Shown one piece after another: positions 700-26,023 of a stretch of DNA of 26,182 bases; position 1 is the stretch's first letter, and the number at the start of each line of letters is the position of its first letter. Source of the DNA: a virus. The stretch covers positions 1 to 26,182 of IMG/VR virus record IMGVR_UViG_3300002835_000947; one strand, written 5' to 3'. Both the position numbers and the translations under genes were made by a program. The notes under the pieces were generated by a model. It was not told where the DNA came from, did no database searches, and was given only the letters and a program-made list of their open reading frames with translations.

Positions 700-722
700 T
701 AATGCAGAGTTGTTTCAAATAT

Positions 723-1421
723 ATGTTAGTAGATCTTCATAACTTTTTTAAGCATTATGATGAAAAGAATCCAAGGCACGTTGCTGCTGTAGAAAAACTT
801 GAAAAGGACTTGCTTCTAAAAGCACAAGACTTAATTCAAGATGAATCTGAGTGGGTGAAGACTTTTAGATCAAAACCAGAAGTACCAAAATCAAATATCT
901 TAACTGTTCCATTTTATCCACAAACAGATAACTATAGAGATGCAGATCGTACCTGCAACTCATCTGCTTGTGCGATGTGTTTAGAATATTTTAAACCTGG
1001 TACTCTTAAAGGAGCAAAGGGGGATGATGCCTACGTTCAAAAAGTTTTCGCAATCGGTGACACGACTGATCACTTGGTTCAAACCCGTGTTTTGGCGTCT
1101 TATGGCATTAAGTCACATTTTAGTTATGGTCTATCTTTTAATGACCTTGACCGTGAGCTTGCTGCTGGGAGACCCGTGGTTATTGGGATTCTCCACCGTG
1201 GCACTTTATCTACTCCTACTGGCGGGCACATGGTTGTAGTTATTGGTAAAACTCCTGGTGGAGATTATGTGGTTAACGATCCTTATGGATCATTAAATGA
1301 TGGATATACAAGTGCTGTAACCAATGGTAAAGGTGCTGTGTATAAGAGATCTGATTTATCCCGTAGATGGTGCCCTGCTGGCAATGATGGGTGGGGTAGA
1401 ATCTTTGACGAAAAAAAGTAG
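723..1421 (+). CDS. C39-type (papain-fold) cysteine peptidase, probable N-terminal part of a frameshifted peptidase-lysozyme
   Basis: 232-aa protein resembling peptidase family C39-like enzymes. With a start at 723, the likely catalytic Cys is C78 in RTCNSSACAMC, the His is H169 in GGHMVVVIG and the Asp is D186 in VNDPYGS, in the right order and spacing for the fold. An upstream in-frame ATG at 702 adds 7 residues but would lie before the predicted late transcript start. The gene ends GAC GAA AAA AAG TAG. The frame one base back is open from there through the lysozyme, and the join carries a strong -1 frameshift signal (separate entry). In lysis such an enzyme could cleave peptidoglycan cross-bridges or stem peptides while the lysozyme cuts the glycan; this is inference. 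The peptidase fold call is fairly secure; the substrate is unknown. Confidence 0.82.
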   Translation: MLVDLHNFFKHYDEKNPRHVAAVEKLEKDLLLKAQDLIQDESEWVKTFRSKPEVPKSNILTVPFYPQTDNYRDADRTCNSSACAMCLEYFKPGTLKGAKGDDAYVQKVFAIGDTTDHLVQTRVLASYGIKSHFSYGLSFNDLDRELAAGRPVVIGILHRGTLSTPTGGHMVVVIGKTPGGDYVVNDPYGSLNDGYTSAVTNGKGAVYKRSDLSRRWCPAGNDGWGRIFDEKK

Positions 1422-1477
1422 ATAACTCTACTCCTTCTGCGAGCAAATATGATGTGCCCGTAAAGGGAGTAGAGTTA
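1412..1477 (+). promoter_or_regulatory. Candidate programmed -1 ribosomal frameshift signal (A_AAA_AAG plus stem-loop)
   Basis: The slippery heptamer A_AAA_AAG occupies 1412-1418 in the peptidase frame and is followed directly by the TAG stop (1419-1421). After a 4-nt spacer, bases 1423-1434 (TAACTCTACTCC) pair perfectly with 1466-1477 (GGAGTAGAGTTA): 12 base pairs plus a possible G-U pair, around a loop of about 31 nt. A -1 slip gives GTA GAT AAC and then an open frame through linker residues into the lysozyme, yielding a protein of about 396 aa. The lysozyme's own candidate start (GTG at 1454) lies in the loop and has no good ribosome binding site. The alternative is a lost A in a former A8 tract, by mutation or sequencing error. 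Confidence 0.7.
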
Positions 1478-1912
1478 ATCAAAGAGTTTGAAGGATGTCA
1501 TCTCTCTGCCTATCCTGATCCGCTATCGGGTGGACTACCTATCACTATAGGATGGGGAAGCACTAGAGATTTCAATGGTAAACCATTCAATCTTGGTGAT
1601 AAAATTTCTCAAAAGGTTGCTGATGATTTGCTTATCAGTCAAATCAAGCGAGAATTTATTCCTGCCCTATCTAAGATACCTTATTGGAGTGAGATGAATG
1701 ACAATCAACGCGGAGCACTTTTATCCTTTGCTTACAATCTCGGTGCTGGCTTTTACAATTCAAGCAATTTCAATACTATCTCTCGACATCTTCGTGAAAA
1801 GAATTGGGGATTCATCCCAAAAACATTAGAGATGTATCGCAATCCTGGTAGTAATGTAGAGGCGGGATTGCTGAGACGTAGAAAATCGGAAGGTAAACTC
1901 TGGGTTTCTTAA
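1454..1912 (+). CDS. GH24 lysozyme (T4 lysozyme-like endolysin domain)
   Basis: 152 aa if begun at GTG 1454. It resembles phage endolysins that cut the MurNAc-GlcNAc bond of peptidoglycan. The catalytic triad of the family is visible: E13 in KEFEG, D22 in AYPDP and T31 in ITIGWGS. Downstream motifs also fit: GALLSFAYNLGAG, then FNTISRHL, then the C-terminal EAGLLRRRKSEGKLW. There is no signal peptide and no good start: GTG 1454 lacks a ribosome binding site and sits in the loop of a 12-bp stem, and the next ATG is too late to keep the catalytic residues. The frame is open upstream to 1409, so it is probably made as the C-terminal half of a -1 frameshift product with the C39 peptidase. Its last bases overlap the convergent gene ending at 1909. 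Confidence 0.92.
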   Translation: MPVKGVELIKEFEGCHLSAYPDPLSGGLPITIGWGSTRDFNGKPFNLGDKISQKVADDLLISQIKREFIPALSKIPYWSEMNDNQRGALLSFAYNLGAGFYNSSNFNTISRHLREKNWGFIPKTLEMYRNPGSNVEAGLLRRRKSEGKLWVS

Positions 1913-2649: not shown

Positions 2650-4470
2650 ATGAATCCTCTAAGTTCATTCCGCAACTTTACCAACAGGTTTCCCCTTAGA
2701 TCTGCTGAATACAATAGCAACAATGACAAATCATCCAATCAATCACAGGGGCAATCTGCCATCAGTATTGCATCAGTGAGTTATCAGAGCAAGTCTTATG
2801 AAAGTGGTGAAACACTTCCGTGGGGAATTCAAGCAGTCTGGCAGGGAGAAGACATTTCCAAAAGAGGTAATTTTGCATCTGAATCCTATGCATTTGTAAT
2901 TGACTCTGGAGTTTCCGATAAAACAGATGATTTAAACTTAAATAAAGATTGGGCACGAAGTTGGGTTTATACTCCATCTGGACTTGAATCTCCTTTTTCA
3001 GACGGAAATGGACACGGGACTCATATTGCAGGAGTCATTGGAGCACTTGTTAACGGCAAAGGTATTATTGGAGTATCACCAGGAGCACAAATTGTTTCAC
3101 TTAAGGTGAATAATGACTTTGGTTTTGGAGATGGCAACACCACTGCTGAAGCAGTCAACTATGCCGCAAACATCATCAATGATAATAAACTAGACAAAAA
3201 GAAATGTGTCATCAATTTGAGTCTTGTTGCACACTCCCGTGATCCAAAACTGGAGTCGGCAATTCTTCGTGCCGCAGATCAGGGAATTCAATTCACTATT
3301 GCTGCGGGTAACTTTGGCAAAGATGTAGATAACTTTGCCCCTGCTTGTATTGGAAGTCATCCAAATGTTTATGTGGTATCTGCCGTAGACAGTTCAAATC
3401 AAGTCCCATTCTGGTCAAATTATGATCGTCTTGATACCGCAACCGATGCTGATGATGTTGATTATGCTGCACCAGGAGTTAACATTCTTTCATATCATAA
3501 AAACGGACAACTCGGCACTTTGAGTGGAACATCTCAAGCAGCACCCCATCTTGCTGGATTGCTGATTAGTGGAGGGGTACAAGCAGGAAATATGGTCAAG
3601 TCAAATTATGCCAATACCGCAGATCCTTTTGTAATATCTGCGACTCAATCATTATTGCCTGTACAAGTACAACCTGCCGCAAAACAATCCCCACCAACAT
3701 ATAACCTAGTAAGTAATGCCACTATCAATGAGGGGCAAACATTAAAGATTGACATCGCAACAACTAATTTAACAAAGGGTACACCTTTGTACTGGAGCAT
3801 TTCTGGTAACGGTATTTCTACTAACGATTTCACTGGACTTTCTGATTTGAAAGGAAATCTATCAATAGATGCCAAAGGCAATGCCACCGTTAGTTTTAAC
3901 CTAAAGAATGATTTGAATACAGAAGGAACTGAGTCAATTAAATTTGAACTCTTCAGTGATTCTGCCCGTTCAATTAAAGTTGGGGATAAAAGTGCTGAGA
4001 TTCAAGATACATCCAAAACACCATCTCCAAGTTTAACACTTTGGGGTACAAATGGTAATGATATTATTACAGGTGGTGCTGGTGATGATTTTATTGCTGG
4101 TGTTGCACGGACTGGGACTGATTTGACATCAATGGGTCGTGGACAATTTGATATTCTTACGGGTGGTCTTGGAAAGGATGTATTTGTATTGGGTGATAGT
4201 CGTGGAACATTTTATGATGATGGCATTAAATCCAATCACGGTGCAAATGACTATGCTTTAATCAAAGATTTCAAAGCAGGTGAGGATAAAATTCAACTCA
4301 AAAAGGGTCAAGGAGCCGTATGGAAAGCATTGGATGCCAATGTTTTAGTTTATTATGACTTGAATCGTAATCGTGGTATTGAAACGTCTGGACCTAACCG
4401 AGATGATTTAATTGCAATTCTTGAAGGTGTAACGACATTGAGCAACAGTGATATTCTCGTTGCTAGGTAA
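2650..4470 (+). CDS. Subtilisin-like serine protease (peptidase S8) with Calx-beta-like and RTX-type C-terminal regions
   Basis: 606-aa multidomain protease. The S8 catalytic set is complete: D85 in FVIDSGVS, H122 in NGHGTHIAG, oxyanion-hole N221 in AAGNFG and S295 in LSGTSQAAPHLAG, preceded by the typical LPWGIQAVW entry motif near residue 57. Residues ~355-450 look like a Calx-beta-type calcium-binding sandwich (INEGQTLKI ... TEGTESIKFELF). Residues ~470-606 contain hemolysin-type nonapeptide repeats (GTNGNDIITGGAGDDFI, then GGLGKDVFVLGD) as in cyanobacterial secreted proteins. There is no classical signal peptide; RTX proteins usually leave by type I secretion using C-terminal signals. The domain combination looks host-derived. 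It sits directly upstream of psbA and has its own promoter. Its role in infection is unknown: cleavage of host surface or extracellular proteins, or virion maturation, are guesses. Confidence 0.9.
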   Translation: MNPLSSFRNFTNRFPLRSAEYNSNNDKSSNQSQGQSAISIASVSYQSKSYESGETLPWGIQAVWQGEDISKRGNFASESYAFVIDSGVSDKTDDLNLNKDWARSWVYTPSGLESPFSDGNGHGTHIAGVIGALVNGKGIIGVSPGAQIVSLKVNNDFGFGDGNTTAEAVNYAANIINDNKLDKKKCVINLSLVAHSRDPKLESAILRAADQGIQFTIAAGNFGKDVDNFAPACIGSHPNVYVVSAVDSSNQVPFWSNYDRLDTATDADDVDYAAPGVNILSYHKNGQLGTLSGTSQAAPHLAGLLISGGVQAGNMVKSNYANTADPFVISATQSLLPVQVQPAAKQSPPTYNLVSNATINEGQTLKIDIATTNLTKGTPLYWSISGNGISTNDFTGLSDLKGNLSIDAKGNATVSFNLKNDLNTEGTESIKFELFSDSARSIKVGDKSAEIQDTSKTPSPSLTLWGTNGNDIITGGAGDDFIAGVARTGTDLTSMGRGQFDILTGGLGKDVFVLGDSRGTFYDDGIKSNHGANDYALIKDFKAGEDKIQLKKGQGAVWKALDANVLVYYDLNRNRGIETSGPNRDDLIAILEGVTTLSNSDILVAR

Positions 4471-4534: not shown

Positions 4535-4685
4535 TTACAGAACGTAACAGTTCTTTAATGTTGTCCTCTACCTAACCGGGACCTATGGGGAGGTTAAACA
4601 CAGTCTCTCATATCCGCAAATTAGGGTGTTGCGGAGCATAATGTATTACCAGTTCCCTGCTGGATTACTTACCCTTTTAAAACAA
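4535..4685 (+). promoter_or_regulatory. Structured psbA leader with hairpin hiding a ribosome binding site
   Basis: Bases 4613-4619 (TCCGCAA) pair perfectly with 4629-4635 (TTGCGGA) around a 9-nt loop. The 3' arm contains the GCGGAG that would serve the ATG at 4641, which is in frame with psbA and would add 15 residues ([10 protein letters not shown]...). Upstream, GTTAC-AGAAC-GTAAC and TAACC...GGTTA could form further weak stems. The canonical psbA ATG at 4686 has no ribosome binding site. Translational control is an inference. Confidence 0.45.
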
Positions 4686-5765
4686 ATGACTGCTACTATT
4701 GCACAAAGACAATCTACTAACTCCTGGGAACAATTTTGCCAGTGGGTTACTTCAACAAACAACCGTCTTTATGTTGGTTGGTTTGGAACTCTGATGATTC
4801 CTACACTGCTTGCTGCAACTGTATGTTTCATCGTAGCCTTCATTGCCGCACCTCCGGTGGACATTGATGGCATTCGTGAACCTGTTGCTGGTTCACTCAT
4901 GTATGGTAACAATATCATTTCTGGTGCTGTTGTTCCTTCTAGCAACGCAATCGGACTTCATTTTTATCCAATCTGGGAAGCAAATTCACTTGATGAATGG
5001 CTTTACAATGGTGGACCCTATCAGTTGGTTGTTTTCCACTTCCTTATTGGCATCTTCTGCTATATGGGTCGTGAATGGGAACTTTCCTATCGTCTTGGTA
5101 TGCGTCCATGGATTATGGTTGCCTATAGTGCTCCTGTTGCAGCTGCCACCGCAGTATTTCTTGTCTATCCTTTTGGTCAAGGTTCTTTTTCTGATGGTAT
5201 GCCTTTGGGTATTTCTGGAACCTTTAACTATATGTTTGTGTTCCAGGCTGAGCACAACATCCTGATGCACCCCTTCCATATGCTTGGAGTTGCTGGTGTA
5301 TTTGGTGGTTCTCTATTCAGTGCTATGCATGGATCTCTGGTCACTAGCTCACTCGTTCGTGAAACAACGGAAACTGAATCACAAAACTATGGATACAAGT
5401 TCGGACAAGAAGAAGAAACCTACAACATTGTTGCAGCACATGGATACTTCGGACGACTCATCTTCCAATACGCTTCCTTTAACAACAGCCGTAGCCTACA
5501 TTTCTTTTTGGCTGCTTGGCCTGTCGTTGGTATTTGGTTTGCTGCTCTTGGAGTCAGCACGATGGCATTCAACCTGAATGGTTTCAACTTCAACCAATCA
5601 ATTCAAGATAGTCAAGGACATGTAATTAATACTTGGGCAGACATCTTGAATCGTGCTGGACTTGGAATGGAAGTGATGCATGAGCGTAATGCACACAATT
5701 TTCCTTTGGACCTTGCCACTGCTTCTACTACTGAAGTTGCCTTAACTGCACCTTCCATCGGTTGA
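4686..5765 (+). CDS. psbA: Photosystem II reaction-centre protein D1
   Basis: 359 aa, the standard full length; uninterrupted by any intron. All key positions fall on standard D1 numbering when the start is 4686: TyrZ Y161 and its partner H190; Mn-cluster ligands D170, E189, H332, E333, H337, D342 and A344; chlorophyll ligand H198; iron ligands H215 and H272. The C-terminal extension [15 protein letters not shown] after A344 would be removed by the host CtpA protease. Residue 130 is Glu, the high-light (D1:2-type) form. Phage D1 replaces photodamaged host D1 so that photosynthetic energy supply continues during infection. A possible longer start at 4641 (15 extra residues) has a better ribosome binding site but is not family-typical. 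psbD is not next to it. An intrinsic terminator follows. Confidence 0.98.
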
Positions 5766-20773: not shown

Positions 20774-20946
20774 TTGAAAGCTATTTTCGTCTTAACTTTG
20801 CCTTGATGCAGTACCATAAATACTCATTAACGGAGATCGAAAATATGATGCCTTGGGAACGAGACATCTATGTTGAATTGTTAATGCAACACCTGGAAGA
20901 AGAAAAAACAAAACAACAGCAAGTAAATGGCACTCAATTCTTCTAA
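20767..20946 (+). CDS. 51: gp51-like baseplate hub assembly factor
   Basis: 59-aa protein (MNLESYFRLNFALMQYHKYS ... MMPWERDIYVELLMQHLEEE). The pattern PWERDIYVELL is typical of small tail-assembly factors annotated as gp51 in T4-like phages that follow gp26; T4 gp51 itself is 249 aa, so this is a short form or a different protein in the same slot. The ATG sits inside a palindrome and has no ribosome binding site, and the frame is open upstream to the gp26 slippery site, so much of it may be made as a gp26-gp51 fusion. Its end overlaps the next gene by 20 nt. Confidence 0.68.
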   Translation: MNLESYFRLNFALMQYHKYSLTEIENMMPWERDIYVELLMQHLEEEKTKQQQVNGTQFF

Positions 20947-23011
20947 AATTGTACCAGTATTAAAACCGAAGAATGGTCGTGCCTTAGTTGATGAGAAGAT
21001 AGACGAAAGGATACTAAGATTACTTGGTCTTGAAGGTGTTTTTGATATTGATTATGATACTTATGCATCTCTTCTCAAAGAGAGGATGGGTGCTGCAAGA
21101 ATGAGAAAGCAAACTCTTCCAACAGAAGAAGTTGAATTGCTTACAAATGAATGGAAAAAAATAAAGGGTAAGAAAGGTAGATTTAAAGTCAAAAAGATTA
21201 CTGCAGAAAGTTTTAAAAAAGGTACTGCAGTTGGAATGAATTTGGGAAAACAGAGAGCACTTTCTGGAATCAAAAAACTATCACTTTCTCCAGCAATTGG
21301 TAAAGGAGAAACTCAAGATAGTTTTAATGAAATTACAAGTTTATTGAATGAAATTGTTAAAAATCTAACTCAACAAAATAAAACACAAAAAGATTCAAAC
21401 GAGAGAGAAAGAAAGGAAGGTGAGAATGCAAAGAGAGCACTTGCTGAATCAAAACTAGAAAAAGGATTTGCTCTTGCAATTAAAACAGCAGAAAAGGTTG
21501 TTGCTCCAGTGAAATCAATGCTTAGAAGAATCATTGATTTCTTTATGGCTATTTTCTGGGGTAAAGTTTTTCTCAAGTTGTTAGATTGGTTTGCAGATCC
21601 AGCAAACAAGAAAAAGATTGATTCCTTGTTTAGATTCTTTGGTGATCATTGGCCAAAACTTCTTGCACTTTATCTTAGATTTGGAACAGGTTTGGGTAAG
21701 TTTGTTGGTAGTCTTACTAGTTTAGTATTTTTGGGAACAAGAAAGTTGCTTCAAACTGTTTTTCAAATGGTTGGGGCAAAGGGAGCAGCAAAATTTCTTG
21801 GAGGTAAAGGTGGTAAATTAGTTGCAACAGGATTATCAGTTGCAACAACAGTTGGAACCACAATGGCTCTAAGTGAAGGAATAGAAAATTTTGCGGGACA
21901 AGGTGAGGATAAGCAACCAAAAATTCCTACCTATAATGGTGGTGGGTTTGCAAACTTTAAGAAATTGTTTGGAATGTTTGGTGGTGGTTCTTTTAGTCCT
22001 GGATATGTAAGTGGTGAAAAAGGTGTAGATAAGGTTCCTGCAATGTTAAGTGATGGTGAATTTGTAATGTCTCGTGGTGCTGTTGAAAAATATGGTGTGA
22101 ATACTCTGGAAGCAATGAATGCTGCCGGTGGTGGTACAAATAGGCCAAAAATGATTAGTGGGACTACTTATGCTGCTGGTGGTGGATTGGTTGGAGGTTC
22201 TCCTGATTTTTGGAAGATAGCAGCACTTGCATCAAAGGAGGATAGTATAAATCCTCAAGGTCAGGCAGATGTAGCACAGTCAATATACAATCGTATCAAC
22301 CTTGGATCTTATCCTGGTGGAAAAAGTATTTCTGCAGTAATTACTGCTCCAGGTCAATATCAACCTACTTTTTCCAATCCATCTAAGTGGAGATCAATAA
22401 AAGATAGAGTTTCTGCAATCAATGCTACTGGCAATGAAAAAAAGATTGATATGGCTGCTAAATCAATTACAAATCCAGTATTGCAAAGAGAATCTGCAAA
22501 ATTTGTTGGTGGAAGAACTGATTTTCAAGGAGAAAGTCAGAAAAAATATATGAAACCTTCCGATGTTACCCGAGGTAAAAGTCATAATTTCTTTGGGTGG
22601 TTTTATGATGCAAAATTACCAAAACCTGCACCAATACCCAATATAGTTTCTTCTCAATCCAAACAAATTCAAACTCCTCCTATGAAACCAGATATGAATG
22701 GGAGTAAAAATCAACCAAACATTATAGAGAGAGTTAAAAACTTTATTTTTAGTCCATCACAACCAAAAGAACCAAGGTATGCTCAAGGTGGAATGGTGCA
22801 GTCACCAATGCAACTATCAAAAATGCCTTTTAGAGCAAAAAATATTACTCCTCCATCTGCTCCACCTGTACTTGTTTCTACGACAAGTAAAACAAGCACG
22901 ACGATGCCTTCCATACCATCATCACCAGGAGTTCCAAAAGCTCCATCATTTAATTCTATTCACAGTAATAATGAAAGAAAGAGAATACTTGCAATTCACG
23001 GAGTAGCATAA
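20927..23011 (+). CDS. Large tail protein with membrane-like segment and SleB-type hydrolase domain, tape-measure candidate
   Basis: 694-aa protein with three parts. Residues ~1-190: charged and helical (KKIKGKKGRFKVKKITAESF, coiled-coil-like NERERKEGENAKRALAESKL). Residues ~195-310: hydrophobic and Gly-rich (RIIDFFMAIFWGKVFLKLLD, GKLVATGLSVATTVGTTMAL). Then a GEFVM motif near residue 378 (KVPAMLSDGEFVMSRGAVEK), common in tape-measure proteins. Residues ~425-570 look like a SleB-type cell-wall hydrolase: E438 in ALASKEDSINPQGQADVAQS and the following IYNRI, then PGQYQPTFS and NFFGWFYD. It follows gp26-gp51 and precedes a paralogue at 23021. It may be the tape-measure (gp29 role) or a hub hydrolase; T4 gp29 is 590 aa. 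Confidence 0.75.
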   Translation: MALNSSKIVPVLKPKNGRALVDEKIDERILRLLGLEGVFDIDYDTYASLLKERMGAARMRKQTLPTEEVELLTNEWKKIKGKKGRFKVKKITAESFKKGTAVGMNLGKQRALSGIKKLSLSPAIGKGETQDSFNEITSLLNEIVKNLTQQNKTQKDSNERERKEGENAKRALAESKLEKGFALAIKTAEKVVAPVKSMLRRIIDFFMAIFWGKVFLKLLDWFADPANKKKIDSLFRFFGDHWPKLLALYLRFGTGLGKFVGSLTSLVFLGTRKLLQTVFQMVGAKGAAKFLGGKGGKLVATGLSVATTVGTTMALSEGIENFAGQGEDKQPKIPTYNGGGFANFKKLFGMFGGGSFSPGYVSGEKGVDKVPAMLSDGEFVMSRGAVEKYGVNTLEAMNAAGGGTNRPKMISGTTYAAGGGLVGGSPDFWKIAALASKEDSINPQGQADVAQSIYNRINLGSYPGGKSISAVITAPGQYQPTFSNPSKWRSIKDRVSAINATGNEKKIDMAAKSITNPVLQRESAKFVGGRTDFQGESQKKYMKPSDVTRGKSHNFFGWFYDAKLPKPAPIPNIVSSQSKQIQTPPMKPDMNGSKNQPNIIERVKNFIFSPSQPKEPRYAQGGMVQSPMQLSKMPFRAKNITPPSAPPVLVSTTSKTSTTMPSIPSSPGVPKAPSFNSIHSNNERKRILAIHGVA

Positions 23012-23020
23012 TCATAAACT

Positions 23021-26000
23021 ATGAAACCTAAAGCACTTCCTCCTGCAAAAATTAATCCAGCAAAACTTTTAAAGGGAAGTTCTTTAATACCTACTGTGAA
23101 AAGGATTAGTGCTAAATCGGTTGTTGATGATAATCTTTCTTTTGGGGTAAGTTTTATTAAGAAACAAGTGATTAAAATTGGTGATTTAATCAAAACAAAT
23201 ACATTATTAAAAGCAGAAAATGAAAAGAGAAAGAAAAAAGAAGGTGAGAAAAAAAGATTTGCCAAAAAAGAAGAAAAACTTGAAAAACCAAAAGAAGGTA
23301 AAGGAGATAAAATTAAATTACCTTCATTACCTCGTTTAGGTTTTCTTGATAGAATTAAGAAGTTTTTATTTAATATTTTTCTTGGTTACATTTCACTTCG
23401 TTTATTGCCATATCTTCCAAAACTTGCAGGAGTTGTTGGTACGATTATAAAGGTTCAGGATACTGTGATTGATGTATCTGGTAAAATTTTAAATGGTTTG
23501 GTTTCTTTTGTTGATAAAGCATATGAGGTTCACGATAAAACAAGAAAGTTTTTAGGAAATCTTGGAGGAGAAAACTTTACCAAAGCATTTGATGAATTTG
23601 TTGGTGCGATGGATAAAGTCATCACAGCATCTATTATTGCTGCGATTGCTTTTGATGAACTTCGTGATATGGGTGGTCCTGGTGCTGGAAAATGTGATTG
23701 TGGACCAACTAAAAATGGTATGGGGTCAACTGCTGCTTCTGCATACCAAGCAAGTAAAGCAGGTAGATCTTATGCTGCAATGATGGCAGAAAGAAATTTG
23801 CCAAAATGGGTTCAAAAACAATTAGGTGGTAGTGCTGGTAGATTTTCAGATTCAAATTTAAGAATTGCTTTAGGTAAAGGGAATGTTGGGGATTATGTTA
23901 GAATTATTACTCAAGGAAAGTTGGGAAGGGGTGCATTATCCAAAGCAGTAATGACTGTTGTGAAACCAAGATTAAGTATGATTCCATTTGGTATTGGTGC
24001 TTTGATTGACTTTGGATTATCTTGGGCTTTAGGAGAAAACCCTGGTAGAGCAGCTTTTAGATCAATTGGTGCAGGTTTATTGAGTTGGGTTGGAACTGCT
24101 TTGGGTGGTGGTATTGGACTTGCTGGGGGTCCTTTAGCAATTGCTGGAGCCATTATTGGTGGTGCTGCTGGTGGAATAGCTGGTGATGCTATTGGTGGAT
24201 TTTTATATGATTTGATGTTTGGAAATAAAAATCCACAAAATCAAAAGGTTCAAGGTCGTGCTCAAGGTGGACAAGTTACAAGAGGTGGAAAATATACTGG
24301 TCCAATCAAAAGAACTATAAAAAAAACACCACCAAGAACTTTAAAAGTAAAATCAACAGAAGTTAAACCGGGTCAATCTGTTGGTGGTAAGGATAAGATT
24401 AAAAAAATATTCCCTGAAGAAGACCAGACAAAAAATGTAAATCCACTTGGTTATATGAATAGTTCTTATAAGACAGCATCTTCAACACCAGGATTAGGTG
24501 GATTATTTGGTATTATGATGAAGGCACAACTTGGTGAGAGACCATCTAGTGCAGATTATCAAAGTGCAGCAGATGGTTTAACTGCTTGGATGCAGAGAAC
24601 TGTTGGTGGGGGAATTCAAAGAACTGTAGGTGCATTTGCTGAAGGTGGAGAAGTTGATGCTGGAATGTTTAGTAATGGTGCTGATATGAAAAACGTAATT
24701 GCAAAAGCACTTCAAGATAGTGTTGCCCCTAAAGTTGATGATATACTTAATGATTTGAAGAAACAACTTGAATTGAAAGTAATTGAAGGTAAAGCAAAGG
24801 AGGGAGCAACACTTCCACCAGAGGATGGAGACTTTTCAGTTAGTGGTGGCACAGAAGATTTTTGGACTTTGGTTGCAGTTGCATCAAGAGAAGATGCCGA
24901 CCCCCAGGGAAGTGCTGATGTTGCACAAACAATTTATAATCGTCTTGCATCTGGTGCATATACTGGAAAGACAATTAAACAACTTATAACAGCAAGAAAC
25001 CAATATCAACCAACTTGGGATTATCCAAATGGACCTACTCAAGGAAATGGCAATCCAAATCCAGAGTGGTTGTCTATTCAAGATGCAGAATCAGCTGCAG
25101 CAGCTGCTGGTATGGAAGTTGGCACAATAAAAAAAGTCGCAGCCAACATATTAAATCCTACGTTACAAAAAAATGCCAGAGATTTTATACAGGGAAGAAC
25201 TGATTTCAAGGCACAAGGACAAGGTGTAACTGGTATCAGTAGATCCGCAAGAGGGAATGTTTTTGGATGGCATTATAACTATAAAGAAAATAAAATTGCA
25301 AGTATTCCTAATTTTGGTGCCACTGTTGCATCTCGTCCCGGTGGAGGTGTTGATATTAAACTAGGAAAATTTGGAGGTAATCTTTCTGCAGCACAACAAC
25401 TTGCTGCAAGTATGGGACTTCAGGTTACAAGTTATCTTCGTCCGGGAGATCCTGGATATCACGGATCTGGTAGAGCAATGGACTTCCAAACGATTGGTGC
25501 TCCGGGAAATAGAGGAACTCCCAGTCAATTGGCATTTGCTCAAGCAATGATTTCTAAATATGGAACTAGTTTAAAACAACTAATTTATACTCCTTTAGGG
25601 TTTGGAATTTCTGGAGGAAAACAAGTCCCACTATCAACTTGGGGGAATAAAACAAATTCTACACATTATGATCACGTTCACGTTGCTTTTAATAAAGGTG
25701 GAAAAGTAAAAGGAAAAATGGGTATTGATCAAATAAGAGCAATGTTAACTCACGGTGAATTTGTTCTTGATGTGAATTCAACAACCGCACTAGAAGATAA
25801 TTATCCAGGATTTTTGGATGCATTGAACAAAGCAGATTATCAAGGAGCATTAAATGTTCTAAAAAGTTATGCATCTTATGAAATGGGAGCAACAATTCGT
25901 GCGATTGTAGATGAGAAATTAATTCCTGTTCCAGTTCCAGTTGGTTCTTCTCAACAATCTTCAATGATGGTGTCTATATTTGATGAAGTAGAAGATTATA

Positions 26001-26023
26001 TGGCATCCAGTTATAAAGGGTAA
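23021..26023 (+). CDS. 1000-aa tail protein with SleB-type and M15-like peptidoglycan hydrolase domains
   Basis: Paralogue of the gene before it. Residues ~1-95 are Lys-rich; ~100-135 and ~315-395 are hydrophobic, the second Gly-zipper-like (GPLAIAGAIIGGAAGGIAGD). A CDCG (about residue 224) is unusual. Residues ~611-775 repeat the SleB-type domain (E624 in VASREDADPQGSADVAQTIY, then NQYQPTW and NVFGWHYN). Residues ~790-895 look like an M15/VldE-type metallopeptidase: H814 and D821 in YHGSGRAMDF and H882-D884-H885-H887 in HYDHVHV. A GEFVL motif follows (about residue 912). Such a protein at the tail tip would open the host cell wall during DNA entry. It starts 9 nt after the previous gene and has no clear ribosome binding site. 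Confidence 0.8.
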   Translation: MKPKALPPAKINPAKLLKGSSLIPTVKRISAKSVVDDNLSFGVSFIKKQVIKIGDLIKTNTLLKAENEKRKKKEGEKKRFAKKEEKLEKPKEGKGDKIKLPSLPRLGFLDRIKKFLFNIFLGYISLRLLPYLPKLAGVVGTIIKVQDTVIDVSGKILNGLVSFVDKAYEVHDKTRKFLGNLGGENFTKAFDEFVGAMDKVITASIIAAIAFDELRDMGGPGAGKCDCGPTKNGMGSTAASAYQASKAGRSYAAMMAERNLPKWVQKQLGGSAGRFSDSNLRIALGKGNVGDYVRIITQGKLGRGALSKAVMTVVKPRLSMIPFGIGALIDFGLSWALGENPGRAAFRSIGAGLLSWVGTALGGGIGLAGGPLAIAGAIIGGAAGGIAGDAIGGFLYDLMFGNKNPQNQKVQGRAQGGQVTRGGKYTGPIKRTIKKTPPRTLKVKSTEVKPGQSVGGKDKIKKIFPEEDQTKNVNPLGYMNSSYKTASSTPGLGGLFGIMMKAQLGERPSSADYQSAADGLTAWMQRTVGGGIQRTVGAFAEGGEVDAGMFSNGADMKNVIAKALQDSVAPKVDDILNDLKKQLELKVIEGKAKEGATLPPEDGDFSVSGGTEDFWTLVAVASREDADPQGSADVAQTIYNRLASGAYTGKTIKQLITARNQYQPTWDYPNGPTQGNGNPNPEWLSIQDAESAAAAAGMEVGTIKKVAANILNPTLQKNARDFIQGRTDFKAQGQGVTGISRSARGNVFGWHYNYKENKIASIPNFGATVASRPGGGVDIKLGKFGGNLSAAQQLAASMGLQVTSYLRPGDPGYHGSGRAMDFQTIGAPGNRGTPSQLAFAQAMISKYGTSLKQLIYTPLGFGISGGKQVPLSTWGNKTNSTHYDHVHVAFNKGGKVKGKMGIDQIRAMLTHGEFVLDVNSTTALEDNYPGFLDALNKADYQGALNVLKSYASYEMGATIRAIVDEKLIPVPVPVGSSQQSSMMVSIFDEVEDYMASSYKG

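Follow-up and report, generated by a model that had tools for sequence, protein, structure and literature searches.

Introduction

The heptamer A_AAA_AAG is the slippery site of dnaX and is shifty in E. coli (PMC5009743). It is also often found, together with a stem or a pseudoknot, in the IS3-family OrfA-OrfAB arrangement, in which the second product is a −1 fusion (PMC5009743, PMC4066793). Another heptamer, G_GGA_AAG, is the slippery site of the lambda tail chaperone. Bacterial −1 frameshift signals may include a Shine-Dalgarno-like stimulator upstream of the heptamer, an optional part. According to the title of Vladimirov 2022, listed among the references of PMC12859696, T4-like phages appear to use a non-frameshift mechanism for their chaperones. 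Previous mentions of frameshifting in lysins are isolated cases: the PRFect paper cites the lactococcal phage vML3 (PMC10885494), and a putative site was described in the lysin of Alteromonas phage H4/4 (PMC5658483). The open-access literature that we searched yielded no account of frameshifting in cyanophage endolysins, and the sections consulted of the major recoding review (PMC5009743) mention neither endolysin nor cyanophage frameshifting; our statement of novelty is limited to that search and to general knowledge.

Here we describe a junction between a peptidase and a lysozyme gene for which conserved −1 programmed ribosomal frameshifting, yielding the peptidase alone and a peptidase-lysozyme fusion, is very likely, although the products have not been shown experimentally. 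In many cyanobacterial viruses the lysozyme has no start of its own and appears to be made only by −1 slippage, as a fusion.

Results

Organization of the peptidase-lysozyme junction

The window that we analyzed is an entire IMG/VR record of 26,182 bases. The elements of the junction, all on the + strand, are the following:

723 to 1421, + strand: C39-like peptidase in frame 0, 232 aa from the ATG at 723, stop TAG at 1419-1421 (Pfam PF13529, 3.3e-13; start assigned by homologues)
1412 to 1418, + strand: slippery heptamer A_AAA_AAG in frame 0 (sequence; kept in relatives)
1419 to 1421, + strand: frame-0 stop UAG adjoining the heptamer (sequence; UAG is favored at this place)
1423 to 1434, + strand: 5' arm of the putative stimulatory stem, TAACTCTACTCC (perfect 12-bp complement of 1466-1477; covaries in relatives)
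1466 to 1477, + strand: 3' arm of the stem, GGAGTAGAGTTA, on the lysozyme codons G-V-E-L (pairing with 1423-1434)
1418 to 1912, + strand: −1 frame with a linker and a GH24 lysozyme, predicted to be entered by slippage (Pfam PF00959, 8.8e-22; frame open from 1409)

The peptidase frame ends in GAC GAA AAA AAG TAG. In the −1 frame a TGA at 1406-1408 is followed by an open stretch from 1409 up to a TAA at 1910-1912; both frames overlap by 13 nt with the heptamer inside, and the first −1 codon past the heptamer is GTA (1418-1420). Folding of positions 1419-1493 gave −29.3 kcal/mol (z −6.9), a stability that none of 200 shuffled sequences reached. An earlier note, made before any comparison, had proposed the heptamer, the adjoining stop, the −1 frame open from 1409 and the perfect 12-bp stem, all of which held on inspection of the sequence and its fold. 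The 4-nt spacer that it placed after the stop needs a small correction: the 4 nt (TAGA) are counted from the heptamer and include the stop codon. Its fusion of ~396 aa also held provided that translation starts at ATG 723, as in the homologues; a second in-frame ATG at 702 would give 403 aa.

Upstream of the heptamer lies GGGGTAGA or GGGGAAG, which could be read as a Shine-Dalgarno-like stimulator. Because the same bases are the codons of a conserved WGR (the GW-GR motif), selection on the RNA cannot be separated here from selection on the protein.

The two predicted enzymes

The Pfam matches listed above (Peptidase_C39_2 for the peptidase and Phage_lysozyme for the lysozyme) confirmed the C39 and GH24 identities first suggested for the two domains. 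The lysozyme match covers the whole domain (positions 1-125 of 125), and its relatives in the PDB are lysozymes and endolysins, with values down to 9e-12. A PDB sequence search with the peptidase found no solved relative. Residues C85, H176 and D193 of the peptidase are invariant in eight homologues and are presumably its catalytic residues. The earlier note had spoken of two peptidoglycan-targeting enzymes, but cleavage of peptidoglycan by the C39-like peptidase is not shown; that it cuts peptidoglycan cross-links is inferred only from its partnership with the lysozyme.

Other genes of the window also deserve mention. Positions 2650-4470 encode a subtilase (Peptidase_S8, 1e-28) that carries an RTX calcium-binding repeat, unusual for a phage; it is flanked by the lysis genes and by a photosystem II D1-like (psbA) gene at 4626-5765. 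Two large ORFs (20927-23011 and 23021-26023) have weak matches to Hydrolase_2 (cell wall hydrolase), just under the Pfam cut-off, and adjoin a T4 baseplate protein. Outside the window, in S-CREM1 (L011), a single annotated gene at 1009-2190 carries the two domains in reversed order, lysozyme and then peptidase.

The heptamer accompanies lysozymes without an overlapping start

We collected 167 distinct peptidase-to-lysozyme junctions from five IMG/VR scans (four protein and one alignment) and from isolates. The counts describe sampled relatives, with 80 kept per scan, and not prevalence. The lysozyme lies in the −1 frame behind an in-frame heptamer, without an overlapping start, in 95 of the 167 junctions; in 30 others the lysozyme start overlaps the peptidase stop (29 ATGA and one GTGA), and the rest divide evenly into in-frame fusions (21) and separate genes (21). 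The heptamer is found in 95 of 95 junctions without an overlapping start, compared with only 8 of the 30 that have one (Fisher p 3e-18, uncorrected for relatedness). Within the peptidase bodies that we collected, A_AAA_AAG never stands in frame at any of 36,355 codon positions; at the junction, by contrast, nearly every locus without an overlapping start codon for the lysozyme has it, which excludes a chance heptamer. Comparison with homologues showed that the heptamer and the stem are kept in very diverged relatives, cultured phages included.

Of the 95 heptamer loci, 57 have no ATG, GTG or TTG ahead of the lysozyme core; the earlier note had seen no usable ribosome binding site for the lysozyme. 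The other 38 have some such codon, mostly GTG or TTG, upstream of the core in the −1 frame (ATG in only 4 of the 95), and for them weak independent initiation remains possible. The overlap between frames in the heptamer loci is usually 13 nt, that is, the heptamer and the stop and little more. Of 103 heptamer loci, 76 have UAG as the stop directly after the heptamer, whereas lysozyme genes favor UAA (132 of 163 stops). This UAG is mostly part of UAGA; the preference may be due to slow termination or to what the −1 codon requires.

The slippery sequence itself varies. Besides A_AAA_AAG we found T_TTT_TTT (S-CAM7), C_CCA_AAG (in L236, after a C39 peptidase) and G_GGA_AAG, the latter in a differently built lysozyme gene. 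On the tree of relatives the frameshift label changes 21 times and the overlap label 14 times, so that frameshift, start-stop overlap and plain in-frame fusion are three interchangeable solutions. Neither the fusion nor a separate peptidase is universally required, as close relatives use an overlapping start or a plain fusion. Since relatives interconvert these arrangements, we infer that the common constraint is the coupled, limited synthesis of lysozyme behind the peptidase and not fusion as such.

The downstream stem is conserved by compensatory change

Heptamer loci lacking a start have a median downstream fold z of −2.45. For the eight that possess an ATGA start the median is +0.26, and for the interior of lysozyme genes it is −0.20. 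Relatives with an overlapping start mostly lack both heptamer and stem. The 5' arm mostly lies 5-8 nt past the heptamer and the 3' arm has a fixed place on the lysozyme, on the codons of conserved residues (GVELI, CGVDLI or LVGI). Between lineages the arms differ wholly in sequence with their complementarity kept, the pairs being AGTTCTATTCC/GGAATAGAACT, GAGTCAACACCACA/TGTGGTGTTGATTT, GCCAACTAAT/GTTAGTTGGC and GTAGAAC/GTTCTAC; three loci were left out of this listing of arms. In a duplex swap, own arms paired with −16.6 kcal/mol and foreign arms with about −8.5 kcal/mol, and none of 2000 permutations matched this difference. Pair counts at fixed register revealed compensatory changes. For each of the two largest registers, none of 1000 shuffles paired as well as the real arms; for the third stem family (register 0), where the signal is less clear, 39 of 1000 column shuffles did. 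The stem is thus kept by compensatory change as its sequence diverges. A few loci, L149, L151 and L325 among them, showed no stem at the expected place in the folds. A chance hairpin was considered and ruled out by the fold z-scores together with the arm-swap tests.

The junction in cultured phages and in independent contigs

Two other IMG/VR contigs, L016 and L017, have an A7 junction identical to that of the window. Both GenBank records of the cultured Synechococcus phage S-PM2, the wild type and a later deletion mutant, read GCA AAA AAG TAA; their lysozyme follows in the −1 frame and does not begin with a start codon. The annotation of the S-PM2 lysin covers only 72 aa at the C-terminus. 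Three S-CAM7 isolates have the same layout with GTT TTT TTT CCA CAG TAG (T_TTT_TTT), and their annotation is truncated too. We attribute these short annotations, and the much lysozyme that they miss, to the lack of a start codon in the gene. Short C-terminal lysin annotations are found in NC_006820.1 (S-PM2p157), NC_031927.1 (BOW86_gp246) and KU686213.1 (S420910_211). Separately, L158 (five loci) and L143 are continuous fusions with one A more than the usual run of their relatives, and the stem is still there.

A second cassette, a reversed polarity and an apparent exchange at the junction

In other relatives the gene ahead of the lysozyme is an ORF of ~73 aa with an LHNFF domain, an A/S/G-rich linker and CPHCGK[PS]LGK. 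It ends in CTG GGA AAG followed by TAA or TAG, that is, G_GGA_AAG and an adjoining stop. A stem (z −2.3 to −5.3) lies at about +6, and the lysozyme is encoded in the −1 frame. We found this cassette in 11 distinct loci (L264, L248, L254, L261, L242, L249, L232, L256, L244, L266 and L268). LHNFF is common to the cassette and to the N-terminus of the peptidase, and the genes are consequently partly related; the heptamer, the stop context and the stem are distinct.

ACG-2014f, whose 45 records in the phage collection match closely here, has the polarity opposite to that of the window. The members that we read, L009 and L010 (around 2200-2250) among them, are continuous frame-0 fusions that keep GCA AAA AAG TCT GA, and it is the −1 frame that stops at once, in UGA. 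The heptamer and the hairpin GGAGGGUA/UGCCCUCC are invariant or keep their pairing at most positions, with variable codons upstream. L215 and L218 share this arrangement (fusion, heptamer, immediate −1 UGA and hairpin) elsewhere on the peptidase tree, which makes two changes. The reversed arrangement may be what an insertion left behind, or it may work as an alternative; either is possible.

Finally, DNA identity between the window (702-1912) and L198 is 95-100% over the last part of the peptidase and falls to about 52-67% just past the stop. Because identity drops from the stop onward, recombination at the frameshift junction appears to have replaced the lysozyme side. Each of the two carries a heptamer and a stem, and the stems differ.

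Discussion

A frameshift model and its alternatives

We propose that a ribosome translating the peptidase mRNA would meet A_AAA_AAG with the hairpin a few nucleotides ahead. Most ribosomes would terminate at the adjoining UAG and release the 232-aa peptidase. Some would slip by −1 as the two lysine tRNAs re-pair from AAA-AAG to AAA-AAA, pass the stop, and read the short linker and then the GH24 lysozyme to give the fusion of ~396 aa, which in these loci would be the sole form of lysozyme made. The heptamer, the adjoining stop, the stem, the open −1 frame, the missing starts, the covariation and the wide conservation are shown by the sequences. That slippage occurs in infected cells, its efficiency, and termination as the commoner outcome are inferred, with no protein, reporter or ribosome data behind them. 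Every feature of a −1 signal of the X_XXY_YYZ type that can be tested on sequence alone is met, and the products remain undetected.

We weighed three other explanations. Under one of them the peptidase and the lysozyme would be two ordinary genes, the latter starting independently or by coupling at a GTG, a TTG or a non-standard codon past the stop. Thirty relatives do use an ATGA or GTGA overlap, and in the window the lysozyme frame contains a GTG (1454) ahead of the core. However, most heptamer loci have no candidate start before the core, and ATG is rarer still. This explanation also leaves the heptamer and the covarying stem unaccounted for; such a stem would impede initiation, and the heptamer loci that do have their own ATGA start lack it. 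We consider it very unlikely. As a general explanation independent initiation was ruled out by the missing start codons, with a minority of relatives using ATGA or GTGA overlaps. Also very unlikely is transcriptional slippage on the A run, by which some mRNAs would gain or lose an A and join the frames. The runs at the junction (A6-A7, and T8 in S-CAM7) speak for it, but 6-7 A is short for polymerase slippage, and such slippage does not require a covarying downstream stem at ribosomal spacing. Since the 11 distinct G_GGA_AAG loci and the C_CCA_AAG locus have no long homopolymer, it is disfavored as the general mechanism.

The remaining alternative, that a plain fused gene was split by an error of sequencing or assembly or by a recent frameshift mutation, is practically excluded. 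In its favor, in-frame fusions exist in relatives, and L158 and L143 differ by a single additional A. Against it stand the repetition of the A7 run in two further contigs and of the S-PM2 junction in two records, the dozens of diverged loci with an identical frame relation, and the maintenance of the stem by compensation. The earlier note had named relatives with a continuous frame and neither heptamer nor stem as what would make the junction an artefact; the other contigs and the conservation reject that artefact. Its central claim of a programmed −1 frameshift is supported by the conserved heptamer, the covarying stem and the missing starts. The two products that it foresaw, the peptidase alone and a bifunctional fusion, are likewise supported, but the synthesis of both and their ratio are not shown, and a regulated ratio, the "switch" of that proposal, is only inferred.

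Implications

Under programmed frameshifting, we infer that both products would act on the cell wall or serve lysis, and that the selected purpose may be to set the ratio and couple the synthesis of peptidase and fusion. A bolder reading, which we would neither defend nor dismiss, is that frameshifting is widespread and was repeatedly gained in T4-like cyanophages to set the dose of lysozyme relative to its partner; with at least four heptamers, two gene architectures and a switched polarity, the ratio of short to fused product would be what selection keeps. If frameshifting is confirmed, the lysis of Synechococcus by many T4-like cyanophages would hinge on a recoding event missed by current gene callers. 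S-PM2 and S-CAM7 would then offer cultured, testable cases of natural −1 frameshifting in cyanobacterial hosts, the heptamer, stem and stop variants would form a large natural set for work on recoding mechanisms, and there would be a route to asking why a phage rations lysozyme relative to a second lysis enzyme.

Comparison with known systems

With E. coli dnaX the window shares the heptamer A_AAA_AAG and a similarly spaced 3' stem of the same type. It differs in that the −1 frame gives the long product, that the stop adjoins the heptamer and that the genes encode lysis enzymes; the polarity of dnaX is the one matched by ACG-2014f, with its immediate UGA in the −1 frame. As in the IS3 family, an upstream protein alone and its −1 fusion to a downstream catalytic domain are predicted, but there is no transposase, the genes are phage lysis genes and both halves are predicted enzymes. 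The tail chaperone of the lambda G-GT type resembles the window as a −1 frameshift in phage genes with a short and an extended product, and the G_GGA_AAG of the second cassette is the lambda site, although the cyanophage cassettes are not tail genes. Also comparable are the lysin of vML3, H4/4 and LysA of mycobacteriophage Ms6, in which a lysis gene makes or adjoins a second polypeptide and frameshifting has been suggested in some (PMC10885494, PMC5658483, PMC3111421). In the literature searched, none of them is reported as a conserved heptamer and stem fusing two cell-wall enzymes in cyanophages, which is the arrangement that we predict here.
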